This document shows positions 2,437-29,914 of a DNA stretch of 48,338 nucleotides, one piece after another. Source of the DNA: Chitinophaga pinensis (GTDB taxonomy: Bacteria; Bacteroidota; Bacteroidia; NS11-12g; UBA9320). Each line of letters opens with the position of its first letter. Position 1 is the stretch's first letter. The stretch spans positions 1 through 48,338 of the forward strand of contig CAMDGU010000018.1 of assembly GCA_945897885.1 (NCBI GenBank). Direction: 5' to 3'. Under the pieces are notes generated by a model, which was not told the origin of the DNA, searched no databases, and saw only the letters and a list, made by a program, of their open reading frames with translations. A program made the position numbers and the translations under genes.

Positions 2437-2491
2437 ATATTCTGTTTTTACACTAATAATTATAACCTAAAATTGTTGGATAAATTAAAAC

Positions 2492-3076
2492 ATGTACGAC
2501 TTTATTGAAGGTAAATTAGAAAAACTAACTCCGGCATATGCTGTAATTAATTGCAACGGACTTGGTTTCCACATAAATATATCCGTTTACACATTCGAAA
2601 AACTAAAAGGATTGAGCAATGGCCGCCTTCAGGTTCATCAGGTAATAGCTGAAGACAACCACACACTTTTTGGTTTTTTTACTGAAAAAGAGCGGGAGGT
2701 TTTTCGCCATTTAATATCCGTTAGTGGTGTTGGTGCTAATACTGCACGGGTACTTTTGTCATCTTTAAATGAAGATGCATTGGTTAATGCAATAATAAGG
2801 AAAGACGCACCGTTATTACAATCAGTTAAAGGTATTGGCCCCAAGGCAGCCCAACGGCTTATTTTAGAATTGCATGATAAGCTTGGCAAAATTGGTGGTA
2901 ACACAGGATTATTGCCCGGTATTATAAGCAGTGCATTTGATGAAGCATTACAAGCTATGCAGGCATTGGGTTTTATAAGGGCAATTGCAGAAAAAGCTTT
3001 GATGAGAGTGAGCAAAGAACAAGGTGAAAGTGCTACAACTGAGAGCCTTGTAAAGGATGCCTTTAAATACCTTTAA
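2492..3076 (+). CDS. ruvA: Holliday junction branch migration subunit RuvA
   Basis: RuvA binds Holliday junctions as a tetramer and loads the RuvB motor during recombination and repair. The 194-residue length is normal. Domain I (residues 1-63) is the OB-fold, beginning MYDFIEGKLEKL. Domain II holds two helix-hairpin-helix motifs, SGVGANTA at 78-85 and KGIGPKAA at 113-120. Domain III is the short C-terminal helical bundle, ending AFKYL, that contacts RuvB. RuvB and RuvC are not in the window. It lies 67 nt upstream of sprA on the same strand, an arrangement I recall from other Bacteroidota. A weak -7-like TAAAATTG occurs at 2468-2475. Confidence 0.97.
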   Translation: MYDFIEGKLEKLTPAYAVINCNGLGFHINISVYTFEKLKGLSNGRLQVHQVIAEDNHTLFGFFTEKEREVFRHLISVSGVGANTARVLLSSLNEDALVNAIIRKDAPLLQSVKGIGPKAAQRLILELHDKLGKIGGNTGLLPGIISSAFDEALQAMQALGFIRAIAEKALMRVSKEQGESATTESLVKDAFKYL

Positions 3077-3081
3077 TTTTA

Positions 3082-3089
3082 TATTTTTG
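3082..3089 (+). promoter_or_regulatory. -7 element TATTTTTG upstream of sprA
   Basis: Matches the Bacteroidota -7 consensus TAnnTTTG and is followed by CAG. It lies 54 nt upstream of the sprA TTG start, in the short gap after ruvA, so sprA can be transcribed on its own. No clear -33 TTTG at the ideal spacing. Confidence 0.55.
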
Positions 3090-3143
3090 CAGATTGTTAA
3101 AAAATTGAACCATAAGGATACTTTACTAAATTAAAAATAGAAG

Positions 3144-6100
3144 TTGAAAACCGCCCTTACCCGTATTCTATTGGTCGCCTCGGCGGCCTTTGGTATTTCA
3201 TTTATATCTTCGGGCACCAATGATTTTTTGGTGTACGATTCTAAGTTATTAGTAGAGGATGACACTACAAAACTTAAGTTTCCCATTAAAGACAGAAAAC
3301 CTTATGACAATAATTACAAAAAAAACCGTTTTGATTTAAAAGATCCGGATATTTTAAAACGTAATACCGAATATGACCCTGAAAGTAATTCATATATTGA
3401 ACGTGAAAAACTCGGCAATCGTGATTTAAGCCCACCTAAATCAAAATCTTTTTCGGATTATTTAAAAGAATTAAACGAAAAGGAAGAACAAGACTACTTT
3501 CAATCAAAGAGTAAAGCCACCAATTTTGTTCGCAGTTCGGGTATTGTGCCCAACACGGTTAATGTACCTGACGCAGTAGATAAATTATTTGGAGGTGGAT
3601 TAATTGACATTAAACCATCAGGCTCGGCAGAGGCAACCTTTGGTGGGAGTTACAATGTAGTAAGAAACCCTGCCATCCCTGTAAGGCAGCAGCGCACAGG
3701 AACTCCTGATTTTAAAATAAAAATGCAGGTGAGTGTAACCGGGCAAATAGGTGATAAACTTAAAATAAATACCAATTACGATACTGATGCTACCTTCGAA
3801 TTTGAAAATCAAATAAAATTAAACTGGGAAGGACAGCAAGACGACATTCTTAAAAAAATAGAGCTTGGAAACGTTAGTTTACCGCTAAATGGTAGTCTGA
3901 TACAAGCTGGCCAAAGTTTATTTGGAGTAAAAACCCAAATGCAGTTTGGAAAATTAATGGTAACCTCAATTGCCACCCAACAAAGAGGCCAAACTACAGA
4001 AACTGAAGTAAGTGGCGGGGCACAGATTACAAAATTTGACATACAGGCCAATAATTATGAAGCTAATAAACATTTTTTTGTTGGTCAGTTTTTTAAAAAC
4101 CAATATGATAACGCCCTAAGTCTTTTACCGATTGTTCAGTCCGGTGCTTATATTAATTACATCGAAGTATGGGTTACCAACAGAAACAAATCTTTTAACG
4201 ACAACAGAAATCTGGTTCCTTTTGTAGATTTAGGAGAAACAAACCCTAACAATCCAAACTTAAAAGACCCTGCCAACCAGCCAGTTCAAACCCATAATGA
4301 AGCAAATTTATTATGGAGTAAAATAATAACCGACCCCGCTTTAAATAGCAGCACTTCGGTTATTGATGCTTTTAAAACAAAATATGCAGGACTTGATATG
4401 AAAGTTGGTATAGATTATAATATACTTACGAATGCCAGAAGATTAACCGAGCAGGAATACACTATAAACAGACAGTTAGGGTACATTTCATTGAATCAAA
4501 GCTTAAATAATGATGAAATTTTAGCAGTTTCCTATGAATATACTTTTAATGGAAGAGTCTTTAAAGTTGGGCAATTATCACGTGATAATCCTCCGGGGCC
4601 TAGTGGTAGTGGGAATGACCTTGTTGTAAAAATGCTAAAATCTACCATCACCAATACCCGCTGGCCTTTGTGGGATTTGATGATGAAAAACATTTACTCG
4701 TTAAATACTTATAATGTACAGGCTCAAGATTTTAGCTTGAATGTGGTTTATGCTGACGATAAATCTGCCGATTTAAATTATTTACCTGTAAATCCTGTCG
4801 AAATTAATATTTTCGAAAAACAGCTTATCACGGTTTTAAACCTTGATAAAATGAACAAGCAAACTGAAGCTAAACCTGATGGAGTTTTTGACCTCATAGA
4901 AGGGATTACCGTAAACATGCTAAATGGACGAATTATTTTTCCCGTAAGAGAACCTTTTGGTAATTTCTTACGAAATAAATTTAAAGACCCAGCCGGAAAA
5001 GATGCTAATTTTTATGCCTATGATGCTTTGTATGACTCGACAAAATGGTGGGCAGAACAGGACGTAACCCATAACAAATTTTTTCTAAGAGGAAGTTACC
5101 GAGGCAGTACTACCAACGAAATTTCACTAAATGCTATTAATGTTCCACAGGGCTCGGTAAAAGTAACGGCCAACGGAGCGGCACTTACTGAAAATGTTGA
5201 CTACACGGTTGATTACAATTTAGGTAGGGTTCGAATTTTAAATGAAGGCATTATTAACTCAGGTGCGGTAATTAAAGTATCGTCTGAAAGTAACTCCCTG
5301 TTTACACTTCAGCAAAAAACACTTTTAGGCTCACGATTTGATTACACACATTCCCGAAATTTATTGCTTGGTGGCACAATCATGCACATGACCGAAAGGC
5401 CATTAACTCCTAAAGTAGATATTGGTCAGGAACCCATTTTAAATACCATTATGGGGTTGGATGGAACTTGGTCAAAGGATTCGCGTTTATTAACTAAGTT
5501 AGTTGACAAACTTCCTTTTATTGAAACCAAAGAAAAATCAAACCTTGTAATTAGTGCAGAAGCTGCTAAAATTTTTCCGCACAATGCCAAAACAATAGGA
5601 AATACAAGAGGAACCTCATTCTTAGATGATTTTGAAGGAGCTGAAACGCCTTTTGATTTAAAATATATTTTGAACTGGAAATTTGCCCCAACCCCGCAAG
5701 GTCAAAAAGATTTATTTCCAGAAACAGCTTCCGATTCTACCAATGCCTTTAGGCGGGCTAAAATTGCGTTTCATACTATTGACCAAACTTTTTCGGGAAC
5801 TGATAAGAAATACATTCCAGATTACATGACAGGGAATGATCAATCGCATCCATTTGTAAGAACTTGGGCATTAAAAGAAGTATTCCCGCAGCTGAATATA
5901 CAAATGCAGCAAATAAACCAATTAACCACTTTGGACATGGTTTATTATCCAAAAAAACGTGGTATTTATAATTATAATACATCTATCACCGACTTTAACC
6001 CCGATGGCACCTTTAGCAAACCAAAAGAAAGTTGGGGTGGTATAGCCCGTAAAATAGAAACCAATGATTTTGAAGCTGCCAATATTGATTACATAGAATT

Positions 6101-9100
6101 TTGGATGATGGATCCATTTTGTTTGAATAGAAATACAACAAACCAAGGCCAACTCTATATTAATCTTGGAAATATATCTGAAGACCTGAACGCTGATAAC
6201 CGTCGTGGTGTGGAGAATGGCTTACCAAAAGACGGTTCCTTACTTGGACTTGACAGCACCCGTTATGGATTAATACCACAGGTAGCTCCACAAATACAAG
6301 CCTTTGATAATGATCCCGCATCCCGCCCAAATCAAGACAAAGGTTTGGATGGACTAAATGACAATGAAGAGCGAACTTTTTATAAAGGATATATAAATGC
6401 TTTAAAAAATAATTACGGTGCCACGAGTGCTATTGCAACCCAAGCTGAAAACGATCCGAGTTCAGACAACTACCAACATTATTTAGCCGAAGGATATAAC
6501 GCCATTAAGCAGAGTATTTTAGGCCGATATGAATCGTTTAACGGAATGGAAGGTAATTCAACATTAGGTACATTATCAACCGGGCAGCCTTTATCAGCAA
6601 GCATTTTCCCGGATGATGAAGATTTGAATCGCGATCAAACCATGAACTTTAATGAGGAGTATTTCCAGTATAAAATTAATATTTCTAAAAATTCCTTTCA
6701 GGTAGGTTCTAATTTTGTGACCGATTCTATTGTAACTGTGCCAAATTATATTGATGGAACCAACTTTCCGGCAACTATTACCTGGTATCAGTTTAAAGTT
6801 CCAATACGACAATTTGACCAGCGTATTGGGGGTATTCAGGATTTTAAATCCATTCGTTTTATGCGTTTGTTTTTAAAAGGTTTTGAAGACAGTGTAGTTT
6901 TCCGATTTGGCCAAATGCAATTGGTAAGAGCTGATTGGAGGCGCTATTTAAAAAATCTTAATTTTCCTCCTTCAGTAGGGCCAAATGTTGATCCTAATGA
7001 TCAAACCGAATTTACGGTTTCAGCTGTTAATATCGAAAAAAATAGCCAAAGAGTGCCCATTCCTTACGTAGTGCCTCCGGGCATAGTGCGTGAAACTGAC
7101 CCTACACAGCAAAGCAATGTTCAGATGAACGAACAAGCTCTATCCTTAAGAGCTTGTAAGCTAAAAAAGGGAGATTCCAGAGCAGCCTATAAAACATTAA
7201 ATTTTGACATAAGGAACTATAAAAAAATGAAAATGTTTGTGCATGCTGAAGGCAATGATGTTGCTGATGCTGATGTAAGAGCATTTATACGAATTGGAAC
7301 TGACTTGGAGAGAAATTATTACCAATTAGAAATCCCTTTAAAAATTACTCAACCTGGAACTAGTGATCCCTGGGCTATTTGGCCTACAGCCAATGAATTA
7401 AATATAGATTTAGAAGCATTTCAAGCAGTAAAACTTGAAAGAAACAATTTCACAACAGATGTAACGGCTTATTTTGAAAAAACTCTGTCTAATGGAAATG
7501 TAATTTCAGTCGTTGGTCAGCCTGATTTAAGCAATGTGAGAACCATCATGTTGGGTATTAAGAATCCTCTTGACGTTAAAAACGGAAAGACAGAAATATG
7601 CCCCGAAGTATGGTTTAACGAACTTAGACTTGAAGATTTTGTAAATAACGGTGGTTATGCAGCCAATGCTAGAATTGTCGCCAATTTGGCCGACTTTGGA
7701 AAATTAAACATTACGGGAAGTTACCAGTCTATAGGATTTGGCGGCGTTGATAAACGCCTAAATCAAAGAAACCTTAACGAAACTATTACCTATGATATTC
7801 AATCAAGTTTTGAGTTGGGTAAATTTTTTCCTCAAAAAACAGGTATTACCATCCCATTTTTTATAGGGTATAATGAGAATATTATTAACCCAAAATATTA
7901 CCCTCTTAATCCTGATGTGCTTTTAAAAACAGCCCTTAATTCTGCCAAAACCAAGGCTGAAAAAGACAAGATAAAAGAGAATGCTCAGGATTTTACATCG
8001 CGTTACAGTTATAATTTTACTAACGTAAAAAAGAATAAAATTGGTGGAGGTAAATCGCATATTTATGATGTTGAAAATTTCAACGTTAGCTATAGTTACC
8101 AAAAAATATTCCGCCGAAACCAAATTATTCAAGAAAACCTCGTAGAAACGTATCGTGCAAGTTTAGGTTACAATTTCAGTCAGGCGCCTAAAGCCTGGAA
8201 ACCTTTCAAAAAATTGAAACCAAAAGTATTAGCTCCATTCACCGGTTTTGGTTTGTTCTTTGTTCCTCAAAGTATTACTATGCGCTTGGATGTAGACCGC
8301 AGATACTCTGAACTGCAAAACCGAAATAATGATAATTTCAAAGCTATTGTTCCAAAATTATTTGATAAAACCTTTTTACTTACCAGAGTTTATGGGGTGA
8401 ATTATAACTTAACCAACAACTTAAAATTTGATTATAATGCCACTCTCAATGCACGTGTAGAAGAACCAATTGGTTCTCTGGAAACTCAGGCAAAAAAAGA
8501 TACAGTTTGGAGCAATTTCAAAGGGATGGGTAAACCAAATGATTTTAACCAAACCATTAATGCCACTTATAATCTTCCACTTAGTAAGGTTAAATTATTA
8601 AACTGGATTACTGTTTCTGCAAGATATACCGGCAGCTACAATTGGAGAACCGCTCCTTTGGCAGCGCCAATTATGGGTAATACCATTCAAAACTCACAAA
8701 CAATAGGGACCAACGCCCAATTAAATTTCTCGTCTTTTTACAATAAATTCCCATTACTAAAGAAAGCTAACCAGCCCAAAACCCCTAAATCAGCCAAAAA
8801 GAAGAAATATGATGATGAGGAAACTCCCGGTAAAAAGGACGATAAAAAGAAAAAAGACATTGAAATATCAAACGGAGCCAGAGCCACATTAAAATTTGTA
8901 ACCATGGTAAAGCAGTTGCAATTGGATTTAAGTTCAACCAACGGAACTACCTTGCCGGGTTATAAACATTCCATAGATTATTTTGGATTAAGTGATAAGT
9001 ATAAAACCCCGGGCGTTTCGTTTTTAGCTGGATTTCAAGATCCCAAATTAAGATACACAATGGCCGAAAAAGGAGCACTATCACAAAATCCATTACAAAT

Positions 9101-10268
9101 AAACCGATACATACAATTAGAAGGATTGGAATTAAAAGGCACTGGAACCTTAGAACCTTTTGATGGTTTTAGGATAAACTTAAATTTTGAACGCCGTTTT
9201 TCGTTAACTACCTCCAGCACCTTTAAATATGACACTTCCATTTTTCCAAACCAATTTGTGGATGAGGGTTATATGGAAGCCGGAATGTTCAGTATATCTA
9301 CGATTACCTGGAAATCAGCTTTTGAAAAGTATAACGACGATTTTAAATCAGATGCCTACAACCAGTTTCAAAATAACAGACGCATAATGGCTGATAAAGT
9401 GCAGGCTGAAGAACTAGGTTCAGACATTTGGAAATCTAAAAATTATGCCAGCAAAATTGGGGTTATCGACCCCTTAACTCGTTTTCCGGTGGGTGTAGAT
9501 AGCAATCATCAGGATGTACTGATGTATGCATTTATGGCTGCCTACCAAGGCAAAGATGCTAAGAATTATAAGCTTGATAGATTTCCGTTAATTCCTCTTC
9601 CTTCATGGCGAATTTCGTGGAATGGTTTGAGTAATTTAGAATTGGTTAAAAAAGTATTTACCAATATTACCATAAGCCATGCCTACAGTTCAACTACATC
9701 CATAGGCAATTTTAATACAAGCGCTAATTATGGTTTAGATACTTTGAAAAATGGTGAAAACCTTACCCCAAATTATCAGTTTACTACAATTACTATTATG
9801 GAACGATTAAGTCCATTAATAAAAATTGATATGACTTTGAAAAGCGGATTAACTTTAAATTTTGAAATTAAAACCGACCGCTCCTTAAACCTTACCACCA
9901 GTTATAAAATTAATGAAATTCATAATAAAGAGTATGTTTTTGGAACCGGCTATCGTAAATCAGGGGTTATACTTCCTTTTAAAATAAATGGCAGAAAACC
10001 AATGCTTAAAAATGATTTAGATTTCAGATTAGATTTCTCTATTCGTGATGGCTATACCATAACCAGAGATATAAATTCAAATTTACCAACGCAAGCCAAT
10101 GCCGGTATGAAGTCTATTTCCATCCGTCCTACGCTTAACTACAATATTACCGAAAATTTGAATTTCAGAGCCTTTTATAACCGAAATGTAAATAAGCCAC
10201 GAACCACCCAATCATTTCCAACGGCACTTACCAATTTTGGTATTTCATTGCGATACACCCTTCAATAG
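3144..10268 (+). CDS. sprA: T9SS outer-membrane translocon SprA (Sov)
   Basis: SprA is the very large beta-barrel through which T9SS cargo crosses the outer membrane. The 2374-residue length is typical. The N-terminus has a signal peptide-like stretch (ALTRILLVASAAFGISFIS). A conserved early region follows, including SSGIVPNTVNVPDAVDKLF and VTGQIGDKLKINTNYDTDA at about residues 130-215. The end, NFGISLRYTLQ, is a typical barrel closing strand. A lysine-rich low-complexity insertion lies at about residues 1873-1906. The start codon is TTG; no suitable upstream ATG is present. Cargo for this system in the window includes the M36 protease and three arylsulfotransferase-like proteins. The gcvH gene that often follows sprA in flavobacteria, as I recall, is absent here. 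Confidence 0.96.
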   Translation: MKTALTRILLVASAAFGISFISSGTNDFLVYDSKLLVEDDTTKLKFPIKDRKPYDNNYKKNRFDLKDPDILKRNTEYDPESNSYIEREKLGNRDLSPPKSKSFSDYLKELNEKEEQDYFQSKSKATNFVRSSGIVPNTVNVPDAVDKLFGGGLIDIKPSGSAEATFGGSYNVVRNPAIPVRQQRTGTPDFKIKMQVSVTGQIGDKLKINTNYDTDATFEFENQIKLNWEGQQDDILKKIELGNVSLPLNGSLIQAGQSLFGVKTQMQFGKLMVTSIATQQRGQTTETEVSGGAQITKFDIQANNYEANKHFFVGQFFKNQYDNALSLLPIVQSGAYINYIEVWVTNRNKSFNDNRNLVPFVDLGETNPNNPNLKDPANQPVQTHNEANLLWSKIITDPALNSSTSVIDAFKTKYAGLDMKVGIDYNILTNARRLTEQEYTINRQLGYISLNQSLNNDEILAVSYEYTFNGRVFKVGQLSRDNPPGPSGSGNDLVVKMLKSTITNTRWPLWDLMMKNIYSLNTYNVQAQDFSLNVVYADDKSADLNYLPVNPVEINIFEKQLITVLNLDKMNKQTEAKPDGVFDLIEGITVNMLNGRIIFPVREPFGNFLRNKFKDPAGKDANFYAYDALYDSTKWWAEQDVTHNKFFLRGSYRGSTTNEISLNAINVPQGSVKVTANGAALTENVDYTVDYNLGRVRILNEGIINSGAVIKVSSESNSLFTLQQKTLLGSRFDYTHSRNLLLGGTIMHMTERPLTPKVDIGQEPILNTIMGLDGTWSKDSRLLTKLVDKLPFIETKEKSNLVISAEAAKIFPHNAKTIGNTRGTSFLDDFEGAETPFDLKYILNWKFAPTPQGQKDLFPETASDSTNAFRRAKIAFHTIDQTFSGTDKKYIPDYMTGNDQSHPFVRTWALKEVFPQLNIQMQQINQLTTLDMVYYPKKRGIYNYNTSITDFNPDGTFSKPKESWGGIARKIETNDFEAANIDYIEFWMMDPFCLNRNTTNQGQLYINLGNISEDLNADNRRGVENGLPKDGSLLGLDSTRYGLIPQVAPQIQAFDNDPASRPNQDKGLDGLNDNEERTFYKGYINALKNNYGATSAIATQAENDPSSDNYQHYLAEGYNAIKQSILGRYESFNGMEGNSTLGTLSTGQPLSASIFPDDEDLNRDQTMNFNEEYFQYKINISKNSFQVGSNFVTDSIVTVPNYIDGTNFPATITWYQFKVPIRQFDQRIGGIQDFKSIRFMRLFLKGFEDSVVFRFGQMQLVRADWRRYLKNLNFPPSVGPNVDPNDQTEFTVSAVNIEKNSQRVPIPYVVPPGIVRETDPTQQSNVQMNEQALSLRACKLKKGDSRAAYKTLNFDIRNYKKMKMFVHAEGNDVADADVRAFIRIGTDLERNYYQLEIPLKITQPGTSDPWAIWPTANELNIDLEAFQAVKLERNNFTTDVTAYFEKTLSNGNVISVVGQPDLSNVRTIMLGIKNPLDVKNGKTEICPEVWFNELRLEDFVNNGGYAANARIVANLADFGKLNITGSYQSIGFGGVDKRLNQRNLNETITYDIQSSFELGKFFPQKTGITIPFFIGYNENIINPKYYPLNPDVLLKTALNSAKTKAEKDKIKENAQDFTSRYSYNFTNVKKNKIGGGKSHIYDVENFNVSYSYQKIFRRNQIIQENLVETYRASLGYNFSQAPKAWKPFKKLKPKVLAPFTGFGLFFVPQSITMRLDVDRRYSELQNRNNDNFKAIVPKLFDKTFLLTRVYGVNYNLTNNLKFDYNATLNARVEEPIGSLETQAKKDTVWSNFKGMGKPNDFNQTINATYNLPLSKVKLLNWITVSARYTGSYNWRTAPLAAPIMGNTIQNSQTIGTNAQLNFSSFYNKFPLLKKANQPKTPKSAKKKKYDDEETPGKKDDKKKKDIEISNGARATLKFVTMVKQLQLDLSSTNGTTLPGYKHSIDYFGLSDKYKTPGVSFLAGFQDPKLRYTMAEKGALSQNPLQINRYIQLEGLELKGTGTLEPFDGFRINLNFERRFSLTTSSTFKYDTSIFPNQFVDEGYMEAGMFSISTITWKSAFEKYNDDFKSDAYNQFQNNRRIMADKVQAEELGSDIWKSKNYASKIGVIDPLTRFPVGVDSNHQDVLMYAFMAAYQGKDAKNYKLDRFPLIPLPSWRISWNGLSNLELVKKVFTNITISHAYSSTTSIGNFNTSANYGLDTLKNGENLTPNYQFTTITIMERLSPLIKIDMTLKSGLTLNFEIKTDRSLNLTTSYKINEIHNKEYVFGTGYRKSGVILPFKINGRKPMLKNDLDFRLDFSIRDGYTITRDINSNLPTQANAGMKSISIRPTLNYNITENLNFRAFYNRNVNKPRTTQSFPTALTNFGISLRYTLQ

Positions 10269-20181: not shown

Positions 20182-20189
20182 TAACTTTG
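20182..20189 (+). promoter_or_regulatory. -7 element TAACTTTG of the cytochrome-YceI operon
   Basis: Followed by CAG, as in several other promoters of the window. It lies 6 nt before the ATG at 20196, which implies a leaderless or nearly leaderless mRNA for the first gene. Confidence 0.6.
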
Positions 20190-20195
20190 CAGAGG

Positions 20196-20915
20196 ATGAA
20201 AAATTTATTTTTTATTTTTTTAGCAATCATTCTTGGTTTTACTGTTATTCAATCATGTAAGCATTACCCCCAAGATATTATCCCAGCACCTACTGATTCT
20301 GCTGGAAATTATACAACAATTGTAAAAAAACGGCCTTGCAGTGCCGACACCGTTTATTATGCCAAAGATATACAGCCAATTTTTACACAATATTGTTCAG
20401 GCAGTGGCTGCCATAGTGGTGCCAGGCCGGAAGGAGATATTGACCTAACAACATACTCAAATGCAATGGCTAGTGGCAAAATAAAACCATATAATTCAAC
20501 TAATTCAAAAGTTTATCAGTCAATTATTGATCCCGACCCTAATGATAGAATGCCTGAGGCAGCGCCATTGTCAGCGGACAAAATTGCATTAATTAAAAAA
20601 TGGATAGACCAAGGCGCCAAGAATCTTTGGTGTGACGATATGGTTGGGCCGTGCGATACTAGCAATGTTACCTACTCAAAAACGATTACAACAATACTAG
20701 TTAATAATTGTATCGGCTGCCATGGTGTAAGTGGCGGAGTTACTCTAACAAATTATTCGGGAGTTAAGACTGTTGTAAATAACGGAAAACTATGGAATGC
20801 CATTAATCACCTTTCAGGTATTACCAAAGCTATGCCAAACAGCAGTACAAAATTAAGTTCATGTAATTTACGCCAAATAAAAATTTGGATTGATGCCGGG
20901 GCTCCTCAGAATTAA
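20196..20915 (+). CDS. Two-domain heme-c lipoprotein
   Basis: A 239-residue lipoprotein with lipobox VIQSC (lipidated Cys21). Domain 1 has an unusual CX4CH heme motif (C67...C72-H73) with RMPEA (M119) as candidate sixth ligand. Domain 2 has a standard CxxCH (CIGCH, C172-H176) with AMPNS (M213). Each domain ends in a (K/R)xWIDxGA-type helix found in membrane-linked c-type cytochromes. It should carry electrons at the outer face of a membrane. A TTG at 20187 is also in frame, but it overlaps the -7 box, so ATG 20196 is the start. The next gene is a one-domain relative of domain 2. Confidence 0.8.
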   Translation: MKNLFFIFLAIILGFTVIQSCKHYPQDIIPAPTDSAGNYTTIVKKRPCSADTVYYAKDIQPIFTQYCSGSGCHSGARPEGDIDLTTYSNAMASGKIKPYNSTNSKVYQSIIDPDPNDRMPEAAPLSADKIALIKKWIDQGAKNLWCDDMVGPCDTSNVTYSKTITTILVNNCIGCHGVSGGVTLTNYSGVKTVVNNGKLWNAINHLSGITKAMPNSSTKLSSCNLRQIKIWIDAGAPQN

Positions 20916-20949
20916 TAATGCTGGTATAATATTTGCGAAACAAATTAAA

Positions 20950-21333
20950 ATGAAAATATCCAAAACCATATCCCTTCTCATGATAGTGTTTGCGGGGCTA
21001 CAATCCTGCTACTACGATGTAGAGGAAGAATTGTATCCATCTAGTGGAGGGTGTGACACAGCTAATATCACTTTAGCAAACAAGGTGAAACCAATTTTAC
21101 AAGGACAATGCTATGCATGTCATTCGGCAGCAAATGCAGGAGCAACAGGAGCAGGAATAAACGTTGAAACATATACAAACCTGAAGGCTCAAGTTGACAA
21201 TGGAAAACTATTAAAATCCATAAAACATGAAAGTGGAGCCTCGGCTATGCCTAAAGGTAGTTCTTCTAAAATGGATGCTTGTGAAATAATGATAATTGAA
21301 AAATGGGTATCCAAAGGAGCACCTAATAATTAA
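20950..21333 (+). CDS. Single-heme c-type cytochrome lipoprotein
   Basis: A 127-residue lipoprotein with lipobox AGLQSC (Cys20), a heme motif CYACH (residues 54-58) and SAMPKG (M100) as candidate sixth ligand. It aligns along its length with domain 2 of the preceding protein: DTANITLANKVKPIL against DTSNVTYSKTITTIL, and ending KWVSKGAPNN against IWIDAGAPQN. That indicates duplication. The frame opens upstream at a TTG (20890) inside the previous gene, but ATG 20950 is the start that puts the signal peptide first. It follows the previous gene by 34 nt. Confidence 0.8.
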   Translation: MKISKTISLLMIVFAGLQSCYYDVEEELYPSSGGCDTANITLANKVKPILQGQCYACHSAANAGATGAGINVETYTNLKAQVDNGKLLKSIKHESGASAMPKGSSSKMDACEIMIIEKWVSKGAPNN

Positions 21334-21340
21334 AGAAAAT

Positions 21341-21757
21341 ATGTTTAAGAGGATATTATTATTTATAATTATTATCGGAATAATTGTTGCTATTGCTAGT
21401 TATATGTGGAATAAACCGCATAAAGATATAGCAGCAGCCAAAGAAGATTTCATACTCTCAGCCACTCAATTTTATAAAGAATATTCAACAGATGAAGTTG
21501 CTTCAAATGCAAAATATCTTGAAAAAGTAATCGCTGTAGAAGGTGTATTATTTGAAATCCAGCTTGAAAATCCAGATGAACCCACTGTGGCCTTATCTAC
21601 TGCCGAACCAGATCTTACCGTGAGGTGTGGCTTTAAGAAGGAATTACTAGAAGATGTAAAAAAATTAAAGGTTGGTGACAAAATTAAAATAAAAGGCAAA
21701 TGTGATGGAATGGATATGTTTGGGGTGGTTATGACACAGTGCAGTTTGATAAAATAA
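21341..21757 (+). CDS. OB-fold, tRNA_anti-like exported protein
   Basis: A 138-residue protein with an N-terminal membrane segment (residues 4-22, RILLFIIIIGIIVAIASYM) and an OB-fold-like domain. The pattern KYLEKVIAVEGVLFEI...VRCGF...LKVGDKIKIKGKCDGMDMFGVVMTQCSLIK fits the tRNA_anti-like family of Bacteroidota envelope proteins, whose function is not known to me. It carries two or three conserved cysteines near the end. It starts 7 nt after the cytochrome gene, so it belongs to the operon. The ATG at 21341 is preferred over an upstream in-frame start inside the cytochrome gene. Confidence 0.7.
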   Translation: MFKRILLFIIIIGIIVAIASYMWNKPHKDIAAAKEDFILSATQFYKEYSTDEVASNAKYLEKVIAVEGVLFEIQLENPDEPTVALSTAEPDLTVRCGFKKELLEDVKKLKVGDKIKIKGKCDGMDMFGVVMTQCSLIK

Positions 21758-21800
21758 ATAAGCAGTTATAGAAAAAATTTAAAAATCAATATAAAAAGCG

Positions 21801-22370
21801 ATGAAAAACAAAACAAGAATCATTTTAATGGCAGGTGTTATTGCAATTAGTGCAGCATTCACCGTAAATGTGGCCGGAGGTAAATACATGACAAAAAACG
21901 GAAAAGTATCCTTCTTTTCGCATACCGATATGGAAGATATTAAGGGAGATAACAACAAGGTAGCCAGTGTACTTGACAGCAAAACAGGTAAAATGCAAAT
22001 TGAAATTCTTGTAAAATCATTTGTATTTAAAAAAGCGCTTATGGAAGAACATTTTAATGAAAATTACATGGAATCTACCAAATACCCAAAATCGAAATTT
22101 GATGGTAAGATAGATGATATAAACGCCATTGATTTTACTAAAGACGGAACCTATAAATCAACAGTGAGCGGAAACCTCACAATTAAAGATAAAACCAATT
22201 CCGTTAAAACGAATGGTACTTTTACTGTAAAAGATGGTAAGTTAAACGGAAAGGCTGTTTTTAAAATAAAATTAGCTGATTATAATGTAGAAATACCTGC
22301 AGTTGTAAAAGATAAAATTGCCAAAGAATTAGAAATTACGGTTGATTTAGATTATTTAGCTCTTAAATAA
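21801..22370 (+). CDS. YceI family protein
   Basis: YceI proteins are periplasmic lipocalin-like barrels that bind isoprenoid or other long lipids. The 189-residue protein has a signal peptide (KTRIILMAGVIAISAAFTVNVA). The typical pattern follows: VSFFSHTDMEDIKGDNNKVASVLD, HFNENYMESTKYPKSKF, and the strand pair VSGNLTIKDKTNSVKTNGTFTVKDGK. It stands between the OB-fold gene and the DUF5777 barrel in the cytochrome operon. An isoprenoid ligand such as menaquinone would suit that context, but this is only inference. Confidence 0.88.
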   Translation: MKNKTRIILMAGVIAISAAFTVNVAGGKYMTKNGKVSFFSHTDMEDIKGDNNKVASVLDSKTGKMQIEILVKSFVFKKALMEEHFNENYMESTKYPKSKFDGKIDDINAIDFTKDGTYKSTVSGNLTIKDKTNSVKTNGTFTVKDGKLNGKAVFKIKLADYNVEIPAVVKDKIAKELEITVDLDYLALK

Positions 22371-22378
22371 TAACAATT

Positions 22379-23263
22379 GTGAAACATAATTTTTGGATAT
22401 TACTCATTATTATTGGAATACCCGGTTTGGTTAACGCCCAAACCGATACGTCTGATTTAATGAGCCTTATAGGGGATAATGAACAAACAGACTATGCCAC
22501 CGCCACTTTCAAAACTACCAGATTAATGAATGGCCATAGTATCGAAAATCAAGCGGCAGGAGTATTAGATTTCAGGATTAATCACCGATTTGGTAATTTA
22601 AATGGAGGAACCTATGAATGGTTTGGACTTGATCAAGCTAATGTTAAAATAGGTTTTGATTATGGGGTTTTACCTTGGTTAATGGTTGGCGTGGGACACA
22701 CCAATGTAGATAAAACCTATGATGGATTTGTAAAAGCCAAAATTTTAAGACAAAGTACCGGCAAAAAAAAGATGCCTATTTCATTGACCTATGTTGCTTC
22801 ATCGGCTGTAACTACGCTTAAATGGAATAATTCAAGAAATAATTATGTTAGTTCAAGGTATTCTTATACTCATCAATTATTAATAGCTCGTAAATTTAGC
22901 AATGCAACTTCCTTACAAATAATGCCAACGCTAGTTCATCGTAATTTAATCGATTTATTAAAGTACAAAAATGATGTGTATGCAATTGGAGTGGGTGGAA
23001 GACAAAAGCTAACGCAACGTATGTCTATAAATGCAGAGTATTATTACGTATTGCCAAATCAAATAAATCCGATGTATGACAACAGTTTTTCTTTGGGTTT
23101 TGATATCGAAACAGGTGGACACGTATTTCAATTGGCATTTACAAACTCAAGAGGAATGACCGATCCACAGTTTATAACTCAAACTCAAGGAAAATGGCTT
23201 AAAGGCGATGTTCGATTTGGATTTAATGTTTCAAGAGTATTTACAGTTAGAGAAAGGAAGTAA
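22379..23263 (+). CDS. DUF5777 family beta-barrel protein
   Basis: A 294-residue predicted outer-membrane barrel with a signal peptide ending VNAQ. The opening ATATFKTTRLMNGHSIENQ and LDFRINHRFGNLNGGTYEWFGLDQANVKIGFDYG, and the late MTDPQFITQTQGKWLKGDVRFGFNVSRVF, are characteristic of DUF5777. The start codon is GTG, 8 nt after the YceI stop, so translation is likely coupled. It is the last gene of the cytochrome-YceI operon. The function of the family is unknown; the neighbours suggest a link with extracytoplasmic electron transfer or lipid handling. Confidence 0.82.
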   Translation: MKHNFWILLIIIGIPGLVNAQTDTSDLMSLIGDNEQTDYATATFKTTRLMNGHSIENQAAGVLDFRINHRFGNLNGGTYEWFGLDQANVKIGFDYGVLPWLMVGVGHTNVDKTYDGFVKAKILRQSTGKKKMPISLTYVASSAVTTLKWNNSRNNYVSSRYSYTHQLLIARKFSNATSLQIMPTLVHRNLIDLLKYKNDVYAIGVGGRQKLTQRMSINAEYYYVLPNQINPMYDNSFSLGFDIETGGHVFQLAFTNSRGMTDPQFITQTQGKWLKGDVRFGFNVSRVFTVRERK

Positions 23264-23282: not shown

Positions 23283-23874
<592 letters not shown>

Positions 23875-25545
23875 TTACTCCTTAACTATAGTTTGTAAAA
23901 AATGTCCATTTAATACTATCGAATAAATACCCTTTGAAAAATTCTCAATATCAATTTCTAAATAATTATTGCTTTTAGTTTTAAAACTAAATTTCATTGC
24001 TTGACCAATATTGTTAAAAATTTCTACCTTTTGTTCAGAATAAGCAACAATGGGAATCATGAATAGTTTTGTTGTAGGATTTGGAAAAACTTTTAAGCTT
24101 TCAGTTTCTCTAAAACTTGATATTGAAGCAGAAATTTCACAGAAAAAAGTATCCGGATTAAGTTCAATAAAACCTTTTGGGGATAAATCCTTTCCCGTAA
24201 ATGCAGAAAAATCGGAGGCATATCGCGCCACGCGAAACGTATTATTATCAGCAACATTAAGCGTTGTATCACCTTGACTAACTCTAGCTCCTAATTTTAA
24301 AGGGGTGATATATTCCCATACAATTTCCTCTGTAGGTGTTATTTCAAAGGTATATCCTTGTTGAGCCGAACAAATAAGTGTATTGCCATTAGCCAGGCGT
24401 TGAACACTTGATAAACCCGATGAAAACATTGAAGTAGAATCAGGGCGCTTATAGGTCCAGGAATAAGTGTTTGGCAAATATTTCCCGTTGTTTTTTTGAT
24501 ATTGCCACATATAAGTATCAAACGTGGGCTGAAAAATATTGACTGTTGAATAATTGGAACCTGCTCTGTTATTAAATACCATTAATTTACCAAAATCCTT
24601 CTCACCCCAATTTTTCCCCATCCAATGAATATCATGCGGAAAAAATAATTTTTTATCAGCTATCGTTCCTGTACCATAAGCCGCAGGATTTCCCCAGCGG
24701 TATAATAAATCACCTCCTTTTTTTCCAAAACCACCATTGCTTGTGGCTGCTTCTGCCGAGGTTGTGCTATGGTCAATTACCCAAATTTCATCAAAACTTG
24801 GAGAGCTAACAACTATTTGATCGTAACCATAATTATAACTAATAGCATTTAGAAATGCCCAATTTTTGGCACTTGATAAATTGGCATAATTCAAATCCAC
24901 TTTTCCGGGGAAATCTTTTGGATTACCATAATTAGGTTTTGTTGAGTCGAAATTTTGAATTACGTGGTCCCACAAATGCCATTCCCAAACGATGTTAAAC
25001 TTATCGGCACCTAGAGGTTTTACTTCTATAATTTTATCAGGCCATATTTCATTATTACCTAAATATGCAGGATTCCGTCCTTTGCTAATTGCTTGTGCTT
25101 TAGTCTTCTTTTCCCAACTAATCATTAAAATATTGCCGTTTGGCATAGGTTCAACATCATGATGCAGCCTATTGAAAGAGTCATTTAAAGTAAATGTCCA
25201 CAATAAGGTATTGTTCCAATCGCGTTTTTCAACTGTGCCACCTCCACCGCCTGACCATATAGGGTTTCCAGTAACCTTAGCCGAGCGTTTAGTTTTTATA
25301 ATTGAACCATCTTCTAATAAATAAACGGTATTCCCGGGTCTTGAATCTATGGTATCTGTCCACGTTTGAACAATTCTGCCGCAATTATCAAGCAGGTATA
25401 CATTGGGCTGCTCATGGGGATAAAGAAGATTATACCCCTTAAAAGCCTTTGTATTATTTGAAGCTATTAAACCTACCGAGTGCTTTTGAGCCCAACCTTG
25501 GCTCACTATTGTAAATAAGATTGTTAGGAGTAATATTTTTTTCAT
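23875..25545 (-). CDS. Arylsulfotransferase-like beta-propeller, T9SS cargo (copy 1)
   Basis: A 556-residue secreted protein with a clear signal peptide (ending SQGWAQ). The arylsulfotransferase (ASST)-like propeller follows: RLHHDVEPMPNGNILMISWE, IIEVKPLG, IWVIDHSTTSAEAAT, GKKGGDLLYRWGNPAAYG and NTLICSAQQGYTFEI. The last 75 or so residues (VFPNPTTKLFMIPI to NGHFLQTIVKE) are a type-A T9SS CTD. Known ASST enzymes move sulfate between phenols through a histidine; the HHD and IDH histidines are candidates, but activity is unproven. It lacks the DWIHxNSIDY box of the three paralogs. Its ATG overlaps the stop of copy 2 by 4 nt (ATGA), implying coupled translation. Confidence 0.85.
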   Translation of the reverse strand: MKKILLLTILFTIVSQGWAQKHSVGLIASNNTKAFKGYNLLYPHEQPNVYLLDNCGRIVQTWTDTIDSRPGNTVYLLEDGSIIKTKRSAKVTGNPIWSGGGGGTVEKRDWNNTLLWTFTLNDSFNRLHHDVEPMPNGNILMISWEKKTKAQAISKGRNPAYLGNNEIWPDKIIEVKPLGADKFNIVWEWHLWDHVIQNFDSTKPNYGNPKDFPGKVDLNYANLSSAKNWAFLNAISYNYGYDQIVVSSPSFDEIWVIDHSTTSAEAATSNGGFGKKGGDLLYRWGNPAAYGTGTIADKKLFFPHDIHWMGKNWGEKDFGKLMVFNNRAGSNYSTVNIFQPTFDTYMWQYQKNNGKYLPNTYSWTYKRPDSTSMFSSGLSSVQRLANGNTLICSAQQGYTFEITPTEEIVWEYITPLKLGARVSQGDTTLNVADNNTFRVARYASDFSAFTGKDLSPKGFIELNPDTFFCEISASISSFRETESLKVFPNPTTKLFMIPIVAYSEQKVEIFNNIGQAMKFSFKTKSNNYLEIDIENFSKGIYSIVLNGHFLQTIVKE

Positions 25546-27602
25546 TCTTTGATTAGTGTTTGAATAAATTGATTATTAACCAGAATTGAATAAAGGCCAT
25601 TAGAATAATCACTCATATCTACTTCCAATTCTCTATTCGTCTTATTACTAATTACTAATTTTAAAACCTGACCAACATTATTTATTATTTCCACTTTCGG
25701 TTCATTTGTTTCATAAGGTATCCTAATTTTGCCATTTGTTGGATTTGGGTATATTCCCTTTAATCTGTTTTTTACAATATCATCTAGCTTTGTTTCTGAG
25801 CCTATAGTAAAACCCCAATCTGCACTATCCAGCGCCAACATCTCATTGCCGGATGAGTCTTTAAAACATCCTTTGTCTATGGAAATTGATATTTGTTTAT
25901 TGTTTTCAAAATGATAATCAAGTATTACTGATACATTATTTCCTGTTACTAAAATTTGAGCACTCTCAATAGGAATTTTATATTTTAATAAGCTATTCTC
26001 ATATAATTTTATATTTCCTATATTTCCTTTAAATACCCTTTCATTAAAAAATATTTCCGTTACTGTATTAACGGACACCTTTTTTTCCCTGTTGGCAGGC
26101 ATAAGTTTAATTGGGTATGGAAGAACATTATCCACCGCAACAAACGGACAGGAATAGTTGTAAGATTTCTTTTCAATTGGTCCCATGGGAGTTAGTGTTT
26201 TCCCATTAAAACCACTGTAGGCTCTGTTGTAAAAGGTGCATCTAAAAACAGAACTTCCTCCAACATTTCCGTCTTCTAAAATTTCATCATTTGCAGCCAC
26301 AGGGTTTTTATATTCCCAAACTGTTTTATTCTGTGAATTTATTTCAAAAAATCTGCCGGCTACTCCGTCACATATTAATGTATTGCCGTTAGACAACCTG
26401 CTTGCACCAGAAAAAAGATTTGAATAAAATTTAACAGGAATTGAATCTTTATATATCCACTTTTGAGTGGTTGGACCAAATGGAAAACTTTGACTATAAA
26501 CTCCTACACCACTAGTTGGTGGTTTTATTATTTCTACTGATGAATAACTGGGAACTCGCCCCAAACCATTATTAAAAACCATAATATCACCACCATCCTT
26601 GTATCCATCAGTGATAAACTGTGCATTGTGCTGATAAAAGAATCGTTGATTTGAGGAAGTTCCCTTATTATAGGCTTGTGGATTACCCCAGCGATATAGC
26701 AAATCTCCCCCTTTTCCATATTTGCCACCAGAATGTGAAGCTGCTTCTGCGGTGGAGGTGCTATGGTCAATAATCCAAATTTCACTGGTATTGTGACAAC
26801 TTATTAAAATTTGATTCAATGATTTGTTATAATCTATTGAATTTATATGAATCCAATCTAAAAATGGGTTTGGATCAAAATTTATGTTCATTAATTCAGG
26901 ATGGTTTGAAATTACATTATAATCAGGCTTTGAAAAATTTACATCTTGTATTATATGATCAACCAAATTCCATTGCCAAACTATTTGGCCACCTGATTTC
27001 CCTGTAGGTTTAATTTCTAATATACTTTCACTCCATAATTTTGACATATTAATTGTTTCCTTAATACGTCCTTTTGCTATTGCCCTACTTTTTGAAATAC
27101 CATGCCATGCTACAACCAATATATTGCCATTCTCCATAGGATAAATGTCATGATGCATAATTAAAGAATCGTTAGATAATATGTAGGACCAAATTACATT
27201 TCCTTCCCAATCTATTTTTTCAATTATCCCTCCTTTGCCTCCAGCATCAAAAAAAGTATCCTGTGTTCTGCCTGTTCTAAGCAAGCTGCCGTCCGGCAAA
27301 ATATAAGCCGAAAGACCTGGTATATAATCACTTTCCCAACTATGCACTTTCTTACCACACTTATCAATCAAGTAGGTCGTTTTACTAAACATCGGTGCAA
27401 AAAGAACATACCCATCTTCCAGACCACCTGATATATTTTTGGTCAACCCTAAAGTTTTTTGTTGCCCAAAAACGAAAGTGGGAAATAAGAAGATAATAAA
27501 TGTTATTGTAAATATTAAACGGCTCAGAAAAATTAGTAATTTGCCAGAAATGTTGGGTTCAATGAAGTGCTTAAAACAGCAGTCGGAGGTATATTTTCCC
27601 AT
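25542..27602 (-). CDS. ASST-like propeller with Ig-like domain and T9SS CTD (copy 2)
   Basis: A 686-residue protein with a long n-region before a signal peptide ending FVFGQ. The propeller (about residues 50-480) shows MHHDIYPMENGNILVVAW, DWIHINSIDYN, EIWIIDHSTSTAEAAS and KGGDLLYRWGNPQAY. An Ig-like domain follows (about 494-600, with TEIFFNERVFKGNIGN), similar to Big_5-type domains. The end, GIYPNPTNGKIRIPY to NNQFIQTLIKE, is a T9SS CTD. It is a close paralog of copy 3, with the same length and domain order and a shared upstream block at the same distance. Sulfotransferase activity is inferred from family resemblance only. Confidence 0.85.
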   Translation of the reverse strand: MGKYTSDCCFKHFIEPNISGKLLIFLSRLIFTITFIIFLFPTFVFGQQKTLGLTKNISGGLEDGYVLFAPMFSKTTYLIDKCGKKVHSWESDYIPGLSAYILPDGSLLRTGRTQDTFFDAGGKGGIIEKIDWEGNVIWSYILSNDSLIMHHDIYPMENGNILVVAWHGISKSRAIAKGRIKETINMSKLWSESILEIKPTGKSGGQIVWQWNLVDHIIQDVNFSKPDYNVISNHPELMNINFDPNPFLDWIHINSIDYNKSLNQILISCHNTSEIWIIDHSTSTAEAASHSGGKYGKGGDLLYRWGNPQAYNKGTSSNQRFFYQHNAQFITDGYKDGGDIMVFNNGLGRVPSYSSVEIIKPPTSGVGVYSQSFPFGPTTQKWIYKDSIPVKFYSNLFSGASRLSNGNTLICDGVAGRFFEINSQNKTVWEYKNPVAANDEILEDGNVGGSSVFRCTFYNRAYSGFNGKTLTPMGPIEKKSYNYSCPFVAVDNVLPYPIKLMPANREKKVSVNTVTEIFFNERVFKGNIGNIKLYENSLLKYKIPIESAQILVTGNNVSVILDYHFENNKQISISIDKGCFKDSSGNEMLALDSADWGFTIGSETKLDDIVKNRLKGIYPNPTNGKIRIPYETNEPKVEIINNVGQVLKLVISNKTNRELEVDMSDYSNGLYSILVNNQFIQTLIKE

Positions 27603-27630
27603 GATGTGTAATTTGTACGCTTACAAATGA

Positions 27631-27705
27631 CACAACGAACAATTTTTTGCTTTTATTTTATTGAAATACAATCATGACCCACGGATTACAAAATGACAAA
27701 ACTTT
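27631..27705 (-). promoter_or_regulatory. Upstream block shared with copy 3 (before copy 2)
   Basis: Contains three blocks identical to those at 29840-29914: a 9-mer at 27631-27639, CATGACCC at 27673-27680, and a 20-mer at 27686-27705. They lie 29, 71 and 84 nt from the start codon, exactly as in the other copy, which suggests duplicated promoter or operator DNA. A minus-strand TATTTTTG lies further upstream at 27725-27732. Confidence 0.6.
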
Positions 27706-27750
27706 GGTACAAAAACTGATCTCTCAAAAATAATCCCTAGTGTTCAGCTT

Positions 27751-29811
27751 CTATTCTTTGAATATCATTTGATAAAAGCGGTTATTTAAATATAGAGAAT
27801 AAAGACCATTTGAAATTTTACTAATATCAATCTCCAACTCCTGATTTAATTTGTTTACTATCACAAAATTCATAGGCTGGCCTATACTATTTAAAATTGC
27901 AACATTCGATTCACCTCCATTAAAAGGTAATCGAATTATATTATGTGCCGGATTAGGATAAACTCCTACTCGTTTAAAAGTAACCACATCATAATTACTT
28001 AATTTATTTTCTGTAACAAAAATCCAGTTACTTGTATCTATCCCATTCATTTTATTACTTGAAAAATCTATAAAACATCCATTATCCAACGCTATTGCTA
28101 ACCTGGAATTATATTTAAAATAGCTATTTGGTGTAATTATAACCGAAGAGTCATTAATTACTATTTGACTATCTTCAATTGATATTGATTCTTTTAAAAT
28201 ATTATTTTGGTAAATTGTAACAAAACCAGACTTTCCTTTAAGAATTTTTTCATCAAATTTAATACTTAACACCTCGCCTACAGGTACATTAATTGTATTA
28301 ATTGAGGGTAAAAATGCGATTGGTTTAGGAGCCATACTATCAGTCTTTGTTTGAGAGCAAGAATAAGAATAGCTATTTTTTTCAATTGGTCCTGAAGGTG
28401 TTAGCACCTTTCCATTAAATCCACTATAGGATGTGCTATACTGTGTACATCTAAAAACTCCACTTCCTCCTGTTTCACCATCATTTAGTACTTCATCATT
28501 ATTAGCCACCGGATTTACATATTCCCAAACAATGGAATTGTTGCTATCTATTTCAAAAAATATACCTGGCAATCCGCTGCATATTAACGTATTTCCATTT
28601 TCCAATCTATTAGCTCCTGATATAAATCCTGAGTAAAATCGTTCTGGAATAGAATCCTTGTATATCCATTTTTGAGATGAAGGGCCGTATGGTAATGATT
28701 TATTATATGTTCCGTTGCTATTAATTGGAGGTGAAATAATATCTACAGTTGAATAAAAAGGTATTCTGCTAAAACCATTGTTAAATACCATAATATCCCC
28801 GCCATCTTTATATCCACTTGGTATCCAATTAGCATTGTGCTGCAAAAAAAACTTTTGATCTGCCTTTGAACCCTTGTCATATGCTGCTGGATTCCCCCAA
28901 CGGTAAAGCAAATCGCCACCCTTTCCATATTTACCTCCCGTATGTGAAGCCGCTTGTTTAGTTGTTGTACTGTGGTCAATAATCCATATTTCACTAATAT
29001 TATGGCAACTTAATAAAATTTGATCAAGCTCCTTATTATAATCAATAGAGTTCATATGAATCCAATCTTGCGATTGCCCGGGAGCATAGTTTATATTCAT
29101 TAGTTCAGGGTGATTTGCAATATTATCAAAACGGGGTTTCGAAAAACTTGCATCCTGAATAATATGATCCCATAAACTCCATTGCCAAACTATTTCCGCA
29201 CTATCCTTACCAATAGGTTTTATTTCAATCACTCGTTCACTGTACAATTCAGAACCACCAATAGTTCCCTTGTGTCTTCCACCAGCAATTGCTTTGCTTT
29301 CGGGAATTATATGACGAACAATTGCTAATATATTTCCATTATCCATTGGAAATATATCATGATGCTGCCCAATAGAATCATTAGATATAATATACGACCA
29401 AACCACATCGCCATCCCAATCTATCTTTTCAATAATCCCTCCGTTGGATCCATTTGAAAAAAAAGTATCAGTAACCGTGCCTGTGCGCAATAAATGACCG
29501 TCAGGCAAAAGATAAACCGATAAACCTGGATAATAATTACTTTTCCAATCATGAACTTGCCTTCCACATTTATCAATAAGGTAGGTAGTTTTGCAATACA
29601 TGGGAGCAAACAAAACATAACCCTCCATGAAACTTCCTTCCCTATTTTTAATTAACCCTAATGTTTTTTGTTGTCCAAAAACGAACGAAGAAAATAAGAA
29701 GAAGACAAAAGAAGAGGTAAAGGCGAAACGACTTAGAAAAAATAATATTCTGGCGGAAAAATGGTTTTTATTTGAGTGCTTGAAAGAACTTTTGGAGTAG
29801 TATATTTCCAT
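27751..29811 (-). CDS. ASST-like propeller with Ig-like domain and T9SS CTD (copy 3)
   Basis: A 686-residue paralog of copy 2. The frame opens at a TTG (29844), but ATG 29811 gives the same length as copy 2 and the same spacing to the shared upstream block, so it is preferred. The signal peptide ends SSFVFGQ. The propeller shows QHHDIFPMDNGNILAIVRH, DWIHMNSIDYN, EIWIIDHSTTTKQAAS and GKGGDLLYRWGNPAAYD. An Ig-like segment follows (LSIKFDEKILKGKSGFVTIY), then a CTD (VGVYPNPAHNIIRLPF to NNRFYQMIFKE). It lies 132 nt downstream of sucB on the same strand, so read-through from sucB is possible. Confidence 0.85.
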   Translation of the reverse strand: MEIYYSKSSFKHSNKNHFSARILFFLSRFAFTSSFVFFLFSSFVFGQQKTLGLIKNREGSFMEGYVLFAPMYCKTTYLIDKCGRQVHDWKSNYYPGLSVYLLPDGHLLRTGTVTDTFFSNGSNGGIIEKIDWDGDVVWSYIISNDSIGQHHDIFPMDNGNILAIVRHIIPESKAIAGGRHKGTIGGSELYSERVIEIKPIGKDSAEIVWQWSLWDHIIQDASFSKPRFDNIANHPELMNINYAPGQSQDWIHMNSIDYNKELDQILLSCHNISEIWIIDHSTTTKQAASHTGGKYGKGGDLLYRWGNPAAYDKGSKADQKFFLQHNANWIPSGYKDGGDIMVFNNGFSRIPFYSTVDIISPPINSNGTYNKSLPYGPSSQKWIYKDSIPERFYSGFISGANRLENGNTLICSGLPGIFFEIDSNNSIVWEYVNPVANNDEVLNDGETGGSGVFRCTQYSTSYSGFNGKVLTPSGPIEKNSYSYSCSQTKTDSMAPKPIAFLPSINTINVPVGEVLSIKFDEKILKGKSGFVTIYQNNILKESISIEDSQIVINDSSVIITPNSYFKYNSRLAIALDNGCFIDFSSNKMNGIDTSNWIFVTENKLSNYDVVTFKRVGVYPNPAHNIIRLPFNGGESNVAILNSIGQPMNFVIVNKLNQELEIDISKISNGLYSLYLNNRFYQMIFKE

Positions 29812-29839
29812 TATTAGTAATTTGTAGGTGTACAAATTA

Positions 29840-29914
29840 CACAACGAATAATTTCTTCCTCATATTTTACTGAAAAATGAACATGACCCGAACCTTACAA
29901 AATGACAAAACTTT
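29840..29914 (-). promoter_or_regulatory. Upstream block shared with copy 2 (before copy 3)
   Basis: Carries the same three identical blocks as 27631-27705, at 29840-29848, 29882-29889 and 29895-29914, each at the same distance from the start codon. The sequence between the blocks has diverged, so the blocks look conserved rather than freshly copied. Confidence 0.6.

Follow-up and report, generated by a model that had tools for sequence, protein, structure and literature searches.

The 48,338-nucleotide contig CAMDGU010000018.1 from the Chitinophaga pinensis assembly GCA_945897885.1 (hereafter, the window, meaning the whole stretch of DNA analysed) carries at positions 20196-23263 five genes, all on the plus strand, for two c-type cytochrome lipoproteins, an OB-fold protein, a YceI-family lipocalin and a predicted outer-membrane beta-barrel of the family DUF5777. 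We tentatively propose, with slightly less than even confidence, that this operon represents a Bacteroidota outer-membrane redox module directed at lipids or quinones, for which we infer the contacts between the proteins, the ligand, the direction of electron flow and a single transcript. The strongest evidence for a redox role is the interchange of electron carriers beside the barrel gene: DUF5777 is most steadily paired with an exported one-electron carrier (113 of 122 genes), mostly together with YceI, and carriers of three unrelated folds occupy the same place.

Interchangeable carriers and conserved partners of DUF5777

The DUF5777 profile (PF19089) was matched in 153 of 394 genomes drawn from the window's phylum (the draw) and in none of 14 control genomes. 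From the matches listed, 120 draw loci covering most of the places were picked by hand, with thinning in crowded genera, and yielded 121 DUF5777 genes (one locus carries two), which with the gene in the window make a set of 122. A second sample, the named loci, consists of the best 80 of at least 590 loci retrieved using the window's own operon type, and its counts are no census. Open reading frames (ORFs) were called by a simple script, with no trained gene finder, and distances count both strands unless stated.

Within 3.5 kb of DUF5777, the one-electron carrier is heme c alone in 97 of the 122 cases, a Rieske protein alone in 9 and a cupredoxin alone in 3; heme c is joined by a cupredoxin in 3 cases and by a Rieske protein in 1, and 9 have no carrier. 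In loci that lack a heme lipoprotein but have a carrier, a Rieske 2Fe-2S protein or a cupredoxin takes the same place. Pfam scans placed all six cupredoxins above the cut-off of Copper-bind (PF00127) and each of the four Rieske proteins submitted, out of ten, above that of Rieske (PF00355), the six further Rieske loci being assigned by our own search profile. Cupredoxin tallies were restricted to six loci with both a copper motif and a PF00127 match (L022, L036, L078, L097, L104 and L125); larger first-pass counts were discarded, inflated as they were by secretion tails common to the proteins and the search profile, and a copper-motif protein on the opposite strand of the named locus L172 was left out. 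The heme motifs vary as well, with CX2CH, CX3CH, CX4CH and one CX5CH near DUF5777. In a quick tree of the 122 barrels, in which 48 of 119 inner branches are starred and 37 drawn open, the Rieske loci form three separate groups and the cupredoxin-only loci one, amounting to at least four changes of carrier. Since three unrelated folds sharing one slot have only one-electron transfer in common, the business of the operon is probably redox.

Gene densities count in favour of the module as well. Comparing genes per kb within 2.5 kb of DUF5777 with the rest of the same 120 draw loci, we found enrichments of 28.9-fold for YceI, 24.7-fold for the window-family cytochromes and 35.0-fold for the OB-fold family, as well as 38.9-fold for Rieske proteins (10 inside, 0 outside) and 23.3-fold for cupredoxins (6 and 0), with 0.5 replacing zero. 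In the named loci, the corresponding values were 39.6-fold for cytochromes, 190-fold for OB (60 inside, 0 outside, with the same stand-in) and 7.9-fold for YceI (65 inside, 13 outside). YceI was found within 3.5 kb of 102 of the 122 DUF5777 genes, a window-family cytochrome near 101 and OB near 39. The nearest YceI lies on the same strand in 96 of these 102 cases (71 of them also within 150 nt) and in 62 of 62 named loci. Given that YceI occurs in 342 of the 394 genomes, in one to nine scored copies each (per-genome counts being minima), adjacency by chance is estimated at about 1 in 100. Thus, the co-localisation of these genes exceeds chance.

Nor is the neighbourhood confined to close relatives, an outcome that the first-pass annotation of the window, made from the sequence alone, had named as fatal to the idea of a system: the fetched draw loci span 19 family codes, and the named loci fall into six NCBI ranks (Saprospirales, Flavobacteriales, Bacteroidales, Chitinophagales, Cytophagales and Sphingobacteriia; none is given for 22 of the 80). 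Gene order, which the same annotation had proposed to check across Bacteroidota, is conserved in part. The order cytochrome-OB-YceI-DUF5777 is found in 33 of the 80 named loci, where the commonest arrangement (19 of 80) is that of the window, with a diheme and a monoheme cytochrome followed by OB, YceI and DUF5777, but in only 10 of the 122 (window included).

The operon in the window and its proteins

The five ORFs are separated by 34, 7, 43 and 8 nt, and ORF calls and Pfam searches bore out the earlier description of five genes on one strand with gaps of 7-43 nt and the families given above. P0001 (20196-20915, plus strand; 239 aa) is a diheme c lipoprotein, with a lipobox at Cys21 and the heme sites CSGSGCH (CX4CH) and CIGCH (CX2CH); it matches PSCyt1 (3.2e-9) and Cytochrome_CBB3 (5.2e-7), both over the cut-off. 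P0002 (20950-21333, plus strand; 127 aa) is a monoheme c lipoprotein with a lipobox at Cys20 and the heme site CYACH, and its cytochrome matches are weak and all under the cut-off (best, Haem_bd, 3.6e-4). Both are thus exported proteins with a CXnCH motif, as expected of c-type cytochromes, the lipoboxes having been recognised by eye. The first-pass annotation had counted two heme-c lipoproteins; both were found, but with two sites in P0001 the heme motifs in the operon number three.

P0003 (21341-21757, plus strand; 138 aa) is an OB-fold protein with an N-terminal membrane anchor and a match to tRNA_anti-like (PF12869, 1e-22), a family matched by 48 of 48 members of its alignment. It was modelled by AlphaFold with a pLDDT of 95.4 and an N-terminal helix. 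The OB profile weakly matches the putative lipoprotein 3f1z (2.4e-3), which also has the nearest OB fold. Cysteines C96 and C121, conserved in at least 90% of the 48 sequences, are a possible disulfide or metal site. P0004 (21801-22370, plus strand; 189 aa), with a signal peptide recognised by eye, belongs to the YceI lipocalins (PF04264, 1.1e-16, 62 bits against a cut-off of 23.7). A YceI profile of 41 sequences matched nine solved sequences at E 0.01, the best being BcnB (5ixg, 4.9e-6), with BcnA (5ixh) at 2.8e-5; P0004 alone had no match to solved structures at 0.01, and such searches gave only weak matches for P0001 (best 0.62) and P0003 (best 0.13). An NCBIfam scan of the five proteins assigned nothing above cut-off.

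P0005 (22379-23263, plus strand; 294 aa, GTG start) matches DUF5777 over positions 1-247 of the 247 of the model (1.5e-94, 316 bits against a cut-off of 23.1) and was predicted by AlphaFold, from a 64-sequence alignment, to be a 12-strand beta-barrel (pLDDT 90.3), presumably in the outer membrane. The motifs H.FG and T..H.FQ each occur in 190 of 202 DUF5777 ORFs. Strand parity, an approximate guide to the lumen and lipid sides, places the conserved charged positions D115, K119, K172, R208, K210, E220, D242 and E244 in the lumen and the invariant residues H69, F71, H187, H248, F250, F282 and R286 outward, H187 being invariant only among the 64 close relatives and not among 23 diverse ones. In this model, the outward residues form a possible docking surface.

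The first-pass annotation had also placed one -7 box ahead of the operon. A predicted element of the pattern TAnnTTTG, TAACTTTG, is indeed present at 20182-20189 (plus strand), 6 nt 5' of the first ATG. Across the window, however, the pattern shows no enrichment (68 observed against 80.6 expected), and it was rejected as promoter evidence by itself; only a bias toward first genes helps. Among operons with at least four same-strand members, 17 of 94 first genes but 14 of 339 inner genes have the pattern nearby (Fisher p 2.7e-5, which is optimistic because the rows are related).

Upstream on the same strand lie genes for P0007, a multi-membrane protein without a Pfam match, P0008, a PPK2, and P0006, another barrel. 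Profiles begun from these genes matched nothing in the 120 draw loci for P0007 and P0006 and at most one for PPK2, and the module was therefore taken to start at 20196. P0007 (16905-18179, plus strand; 424 aa), beside PPK2 and the unassigned barrel, contains the stretch HSHFAFIGW and has no NCBIfam match either. Downstream, on the minus strand, a 149-aa ORF (23395-23844) matches only positions 14-83 of the 131 of an AAA ATPase domain and may be a remnant or truncated gene. Next come three arylsulfotransferase-like proteins in tandem, bearing secretion tails at the C terminus (23875-29844, minus strand), two of which match PF05935 and PF18962, the third (25542-27602) being similar by eye.

Proposed function and its alternatives

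In the proposed module, DUF5777 would sit in the outer membrane and dock the lipid-anchored carriers. These would obtain single electrons at the respiratory chain and hand them on to a hydrophobic ligand bound by YceI, or remove electrons from it; the likeliest ligand would be a peroxidised lipid or an isoprenoid resembling menaquinone. Outer-membrane lipids would thereby be kept reduced, with the OB-fold protein as an optional anchored accessory. The cytochrome c assembly family (PF01578) is present, which counts in favour. A system linking redox chemistry to a lipid or quinone-like ligand had been suggested by the first-pass annotation; carrier interchange, the match of the YceI profile to solved lipocalins and the redox partners described for YceI in the literature (PMC9113575, PMC8981238) speak for it, but the five genes are not a fixed set, judging from OB (39 of 122) and YceI (102 of 122).

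Several observations weigh against this proposal. YceI is not near 20 of the 122 DUF5777 genes, including an entire clade of 13, and is therefore not the sole partner of the barrel. Its lower enrichment in the named loci (7.9-fold) reflects the 13 further YceI genes outside 2.5 kb. At the genome level, all 153 DUF5777 genomes are also among those with YceI and COX1 (compared by hand), but with YceI in 342 and COX1 in 377 of the 394 genomes such co-occurrence discriminates little and is also confounded by kinship; COX1 was set aside as evidence for being too common. Fusions of operon parts were sought and dismissed, none of 8670 ORFs matching two of the family profiles. Nine of the 122 DUF5777 genes lack a carrier nearby (the contig is short in the case of L025), and a search for hidden carriers in these nine loci gave two matches only, both weak and at a distance of about 4 kb (L093, L103); in L019, a CTACH protein that starts 2.4 kb upstream falls outside our profiles and was not counted. 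A 12-strand barrel with a charged lumen could, moreover, be an ordinary solute channel. Finally, the case for the module comes from sequences and predicted structures, and its ligand and electron direction are our suppositions.

The main rivals of the redox module are an electron outlet and a substrate channel. The first of these, which we consider unlikely, would resemble the porin-cytochrome systems on a small scale: electrons of respiration would travel to the cell surface, or inward from it, and the monoheme lipoprotein would lie outside. It gains, as does the redox module itself, from the YceI-free clade of 13 barrels (SH-aLRT 100). Twelve of its 13 loci hold at least one of an EB_dh lipoprotein (6 loci), a 4Fe-4S protein (10) and an NrfD-like membrane protein (9), the incomplete loci being due in part to the ends of the sequence stretches. 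Pfam searches of representatives found EB_dh in L094 and L091, cytochrome c in L121 and Fer4 with NrfD in L108; the other members were assigned by cluster membership. The window's genome itself carries one such operon (L091, G000:C38:3500-18500, positions 2270-9951), encoding an EB_dh protein with a cytochrome c match, a short CX4CH lipoprotein (no match in a Pfam scan), DUF5777, a small protein, two proteins assigned by cluster as 4Fe-4S and NrfD-like, and a cytochrome c. The arrangement looks like a path by which electrons from quinol could reach the outer membrane, and the NrfD-linked paralogues make it plausible that electrons leave quinol, run via FeS proteins and cytochrome c and arrive at an outer-membrane barrel with heme lipoproteins. 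Five more loci (L038, L043, L109, L115 and L117) have additional cytochromes and no YceI nearby. The pair of DUF5777 and a carrier is thus the steadiest, and YceI and the NrfD module can be regarded as alternative partners. In L118 (4960-10604), a clade operon with an EB_dh-cluster protein adjoins nitric oxide reductase-like genes (NorC- and NorB-like by eye).

The lipid anchors of the cytochromes bear on the same alternative. A rule-based lipobox was found in 222 of 261 cytochromes near DUF5777. The 155 of these shorter than 185 aa tend toward CYYDxEExLYP (Y in 43% at +2, D in 55% at +4, E in 46% at +6), and 65 of them fit C[YF]x[DEN] when the third position is restricted, whereas the 67 longer ones tend toward C-K-H-E-P, with His at +3 after the lipid cysteine in 81%. 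Accordingly, P0002 continues after its lipid cysteine as the acidic CYYDVEEELYP, and the diheme P0001 reads instead CKHYPQD. The acidic run resembles KKEVEEE, the tested surface-export signal of Capnocytophaga MucG (PMC5080379), but P0002 has neither the lysine nor the glutamine that is needed there. Furthermore, a 12-strand barrel is too narrow to enclose a cytochrome, CXXCH occurs in none of the 202 DUF5777 ORFs, and an outlet leaves YceI unexplained.

A wider claim, in which DUF5777 with interchangeable lipoprotein carriers would form a redox complex of the outer membrane that is new as a class and found throughout the phylum, is one that we hold to be rather doubtful, if somewhat likelier than the outlet. 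Here, a narrow barrel, unlike a porin filled with cytochromes, would couple electrons of the menaquinol pool to an acceptor at the outer membrane, either a lipid or one at the surface, with NrfD and FeS proteins as the link in the paralogous clade and YceI as the quinone carrier across the periplasm.

Ranking next after the outlet, and likewise unlikely, DUF5777 might be a substrate channel for a small molecule oxidised or reduced in the periplasm, in which case the carriers would collect the electrons and YceI would bind a substrate or product that is hydrophobic. The nearest solved folds of P0005 among Foldseek's own matches do include specific channels, namely KdgM (Z 17.4), NanC (17.2) and the COG4313 channel (15.8), besides FapF (16.6-17.4 for the trio with KdgM and NanC), and the charged lumen positions listed above would suit this role. 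The likeness is in the 12-strand fold; identity in the fold alignments is 4-15%, the DUF5777 profile has no sequence match among solved chains at E 1, and such likeness among 12-strand barrels tells little of function. No catalytic enzyme is constant either, as non-family neighbour clusters reach at most 33 of 121 sources and the top one is sigma-like.

That cluster, recognised by eye as extracytoplasmic function (ECF) sigma-like genes, is found in 33 loci (L008-L127) within eight genes of DUF5777 and mostly 3-5 genes off; a family of about 436 aa, named by eye, that may be sigma-associated occurs in 17 loci. These neighbours suggest envelope-stress type control, and a YceI gene of Burkholderia is stress-linked (PMC9113575). 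The genes could then form only a co-regulated stress operon, with no physical system, which strikes us as improbable: the sigma genes show no enrichment within 2.5 kb, where 6 lie against 28 outside, and co-regulation alone does not predict tight spacing or non-homologous carriers swapping in one place. Far less credible than any of these is a supply of electrons to oxidative enzymes outside the cell, the role suggested for Cbp2D with lytic polysaccharide monooxygenases (LPMOs), for although Cbp2D likewise pairs YceI with c-type cytochromes (PMC8981238), the parts here are lipoproteins and a barrel rather than secreted fusions, and no LPMO was recognised by eye in the 45 neighbour clusters listed, no profile search for LPMO genes having been made.

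Comparison with known systems

The lipid- or quinone-directed redox module is closest in kind to the BcnA-LcoA system of Burkholderia and other Proteobacteria, in which the YceI lipocalin BcnA and the cytochrome b561 LcoA limit peroxidation of membrane lipids; YceI structures often contain isoprenoids such as ubiquinone-8, and LcoA has been proposed to re-reduce the quinone held by BcnA (PMC9113575). In both cases, a YceI lipocalin gene lies beside a heme redox partner, but the partners in the window operon are a barrel and lipid-anchored carriers, here heme c and elsewhere Rieske proteins or cupredoxins. PF01292, which we take to be the prokaryotic cytochrome b561 family, is absent from the operon and has no match in the window's genome (98.5% complete), so that no linked b561 is present. 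The module would nevertheless act in the manner of BcnA-LcoA lipid-radical detoxification, the part of the inner-membrane cytochrome b561 being played by carriers with heme c, a Rieske cluster or copper. The text of the BcnA-LcoA paper contains no word starting with 'bacteroid' (PMC9113575).

Two other systems share parts of the architecture. Cbp2D of Cellvibrio japonicus combines a YceI-like domain with two c-type cytochrome domains (PMC8981238); it is one multidomain protein with a carbohydrate-binding module, whereas the window has separate genes and a barrel, and YceI and cytochrome are joined in one chain in 0 of the 8670 ORFs. The porin-cytochrome (Pcc) conduit of Geobacter likewise unites an outer-membrane barrel and c-type cytochromes in one gene cluster, its cytochromes having 8 and 12 hemes (PMC4245776); those of the window are lipoproteins with two hemes (P0001) and one (P0002) beside a 12-strand barrel, and thus no multiheme cytochromes of the Pcc kind accompany the barrel. 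PMC10154616 can be counted among the precedents, and a YceI-like gene appears in a table of changes under iron limitation (PMC5429918), with no link to the window operon.

In the literature searched, to which subscription papers and preprints were mostly external, DUF5777 is named nowhere, and among the matches listed we found no account of the operon in titles or abstracts and no functional study of YceI in this phylum. The pairing with carriers of three unrelated folds offers a function to test for DUF5777, present in 153 of the 394 sampled genomes, and likewise for the adjoining YceI. With it, two questions become directly testable: do dedicated carriers cycle the redox state of YceI lipocalins, and is there a route for electrons to the outer membrane in Bacteroidota?

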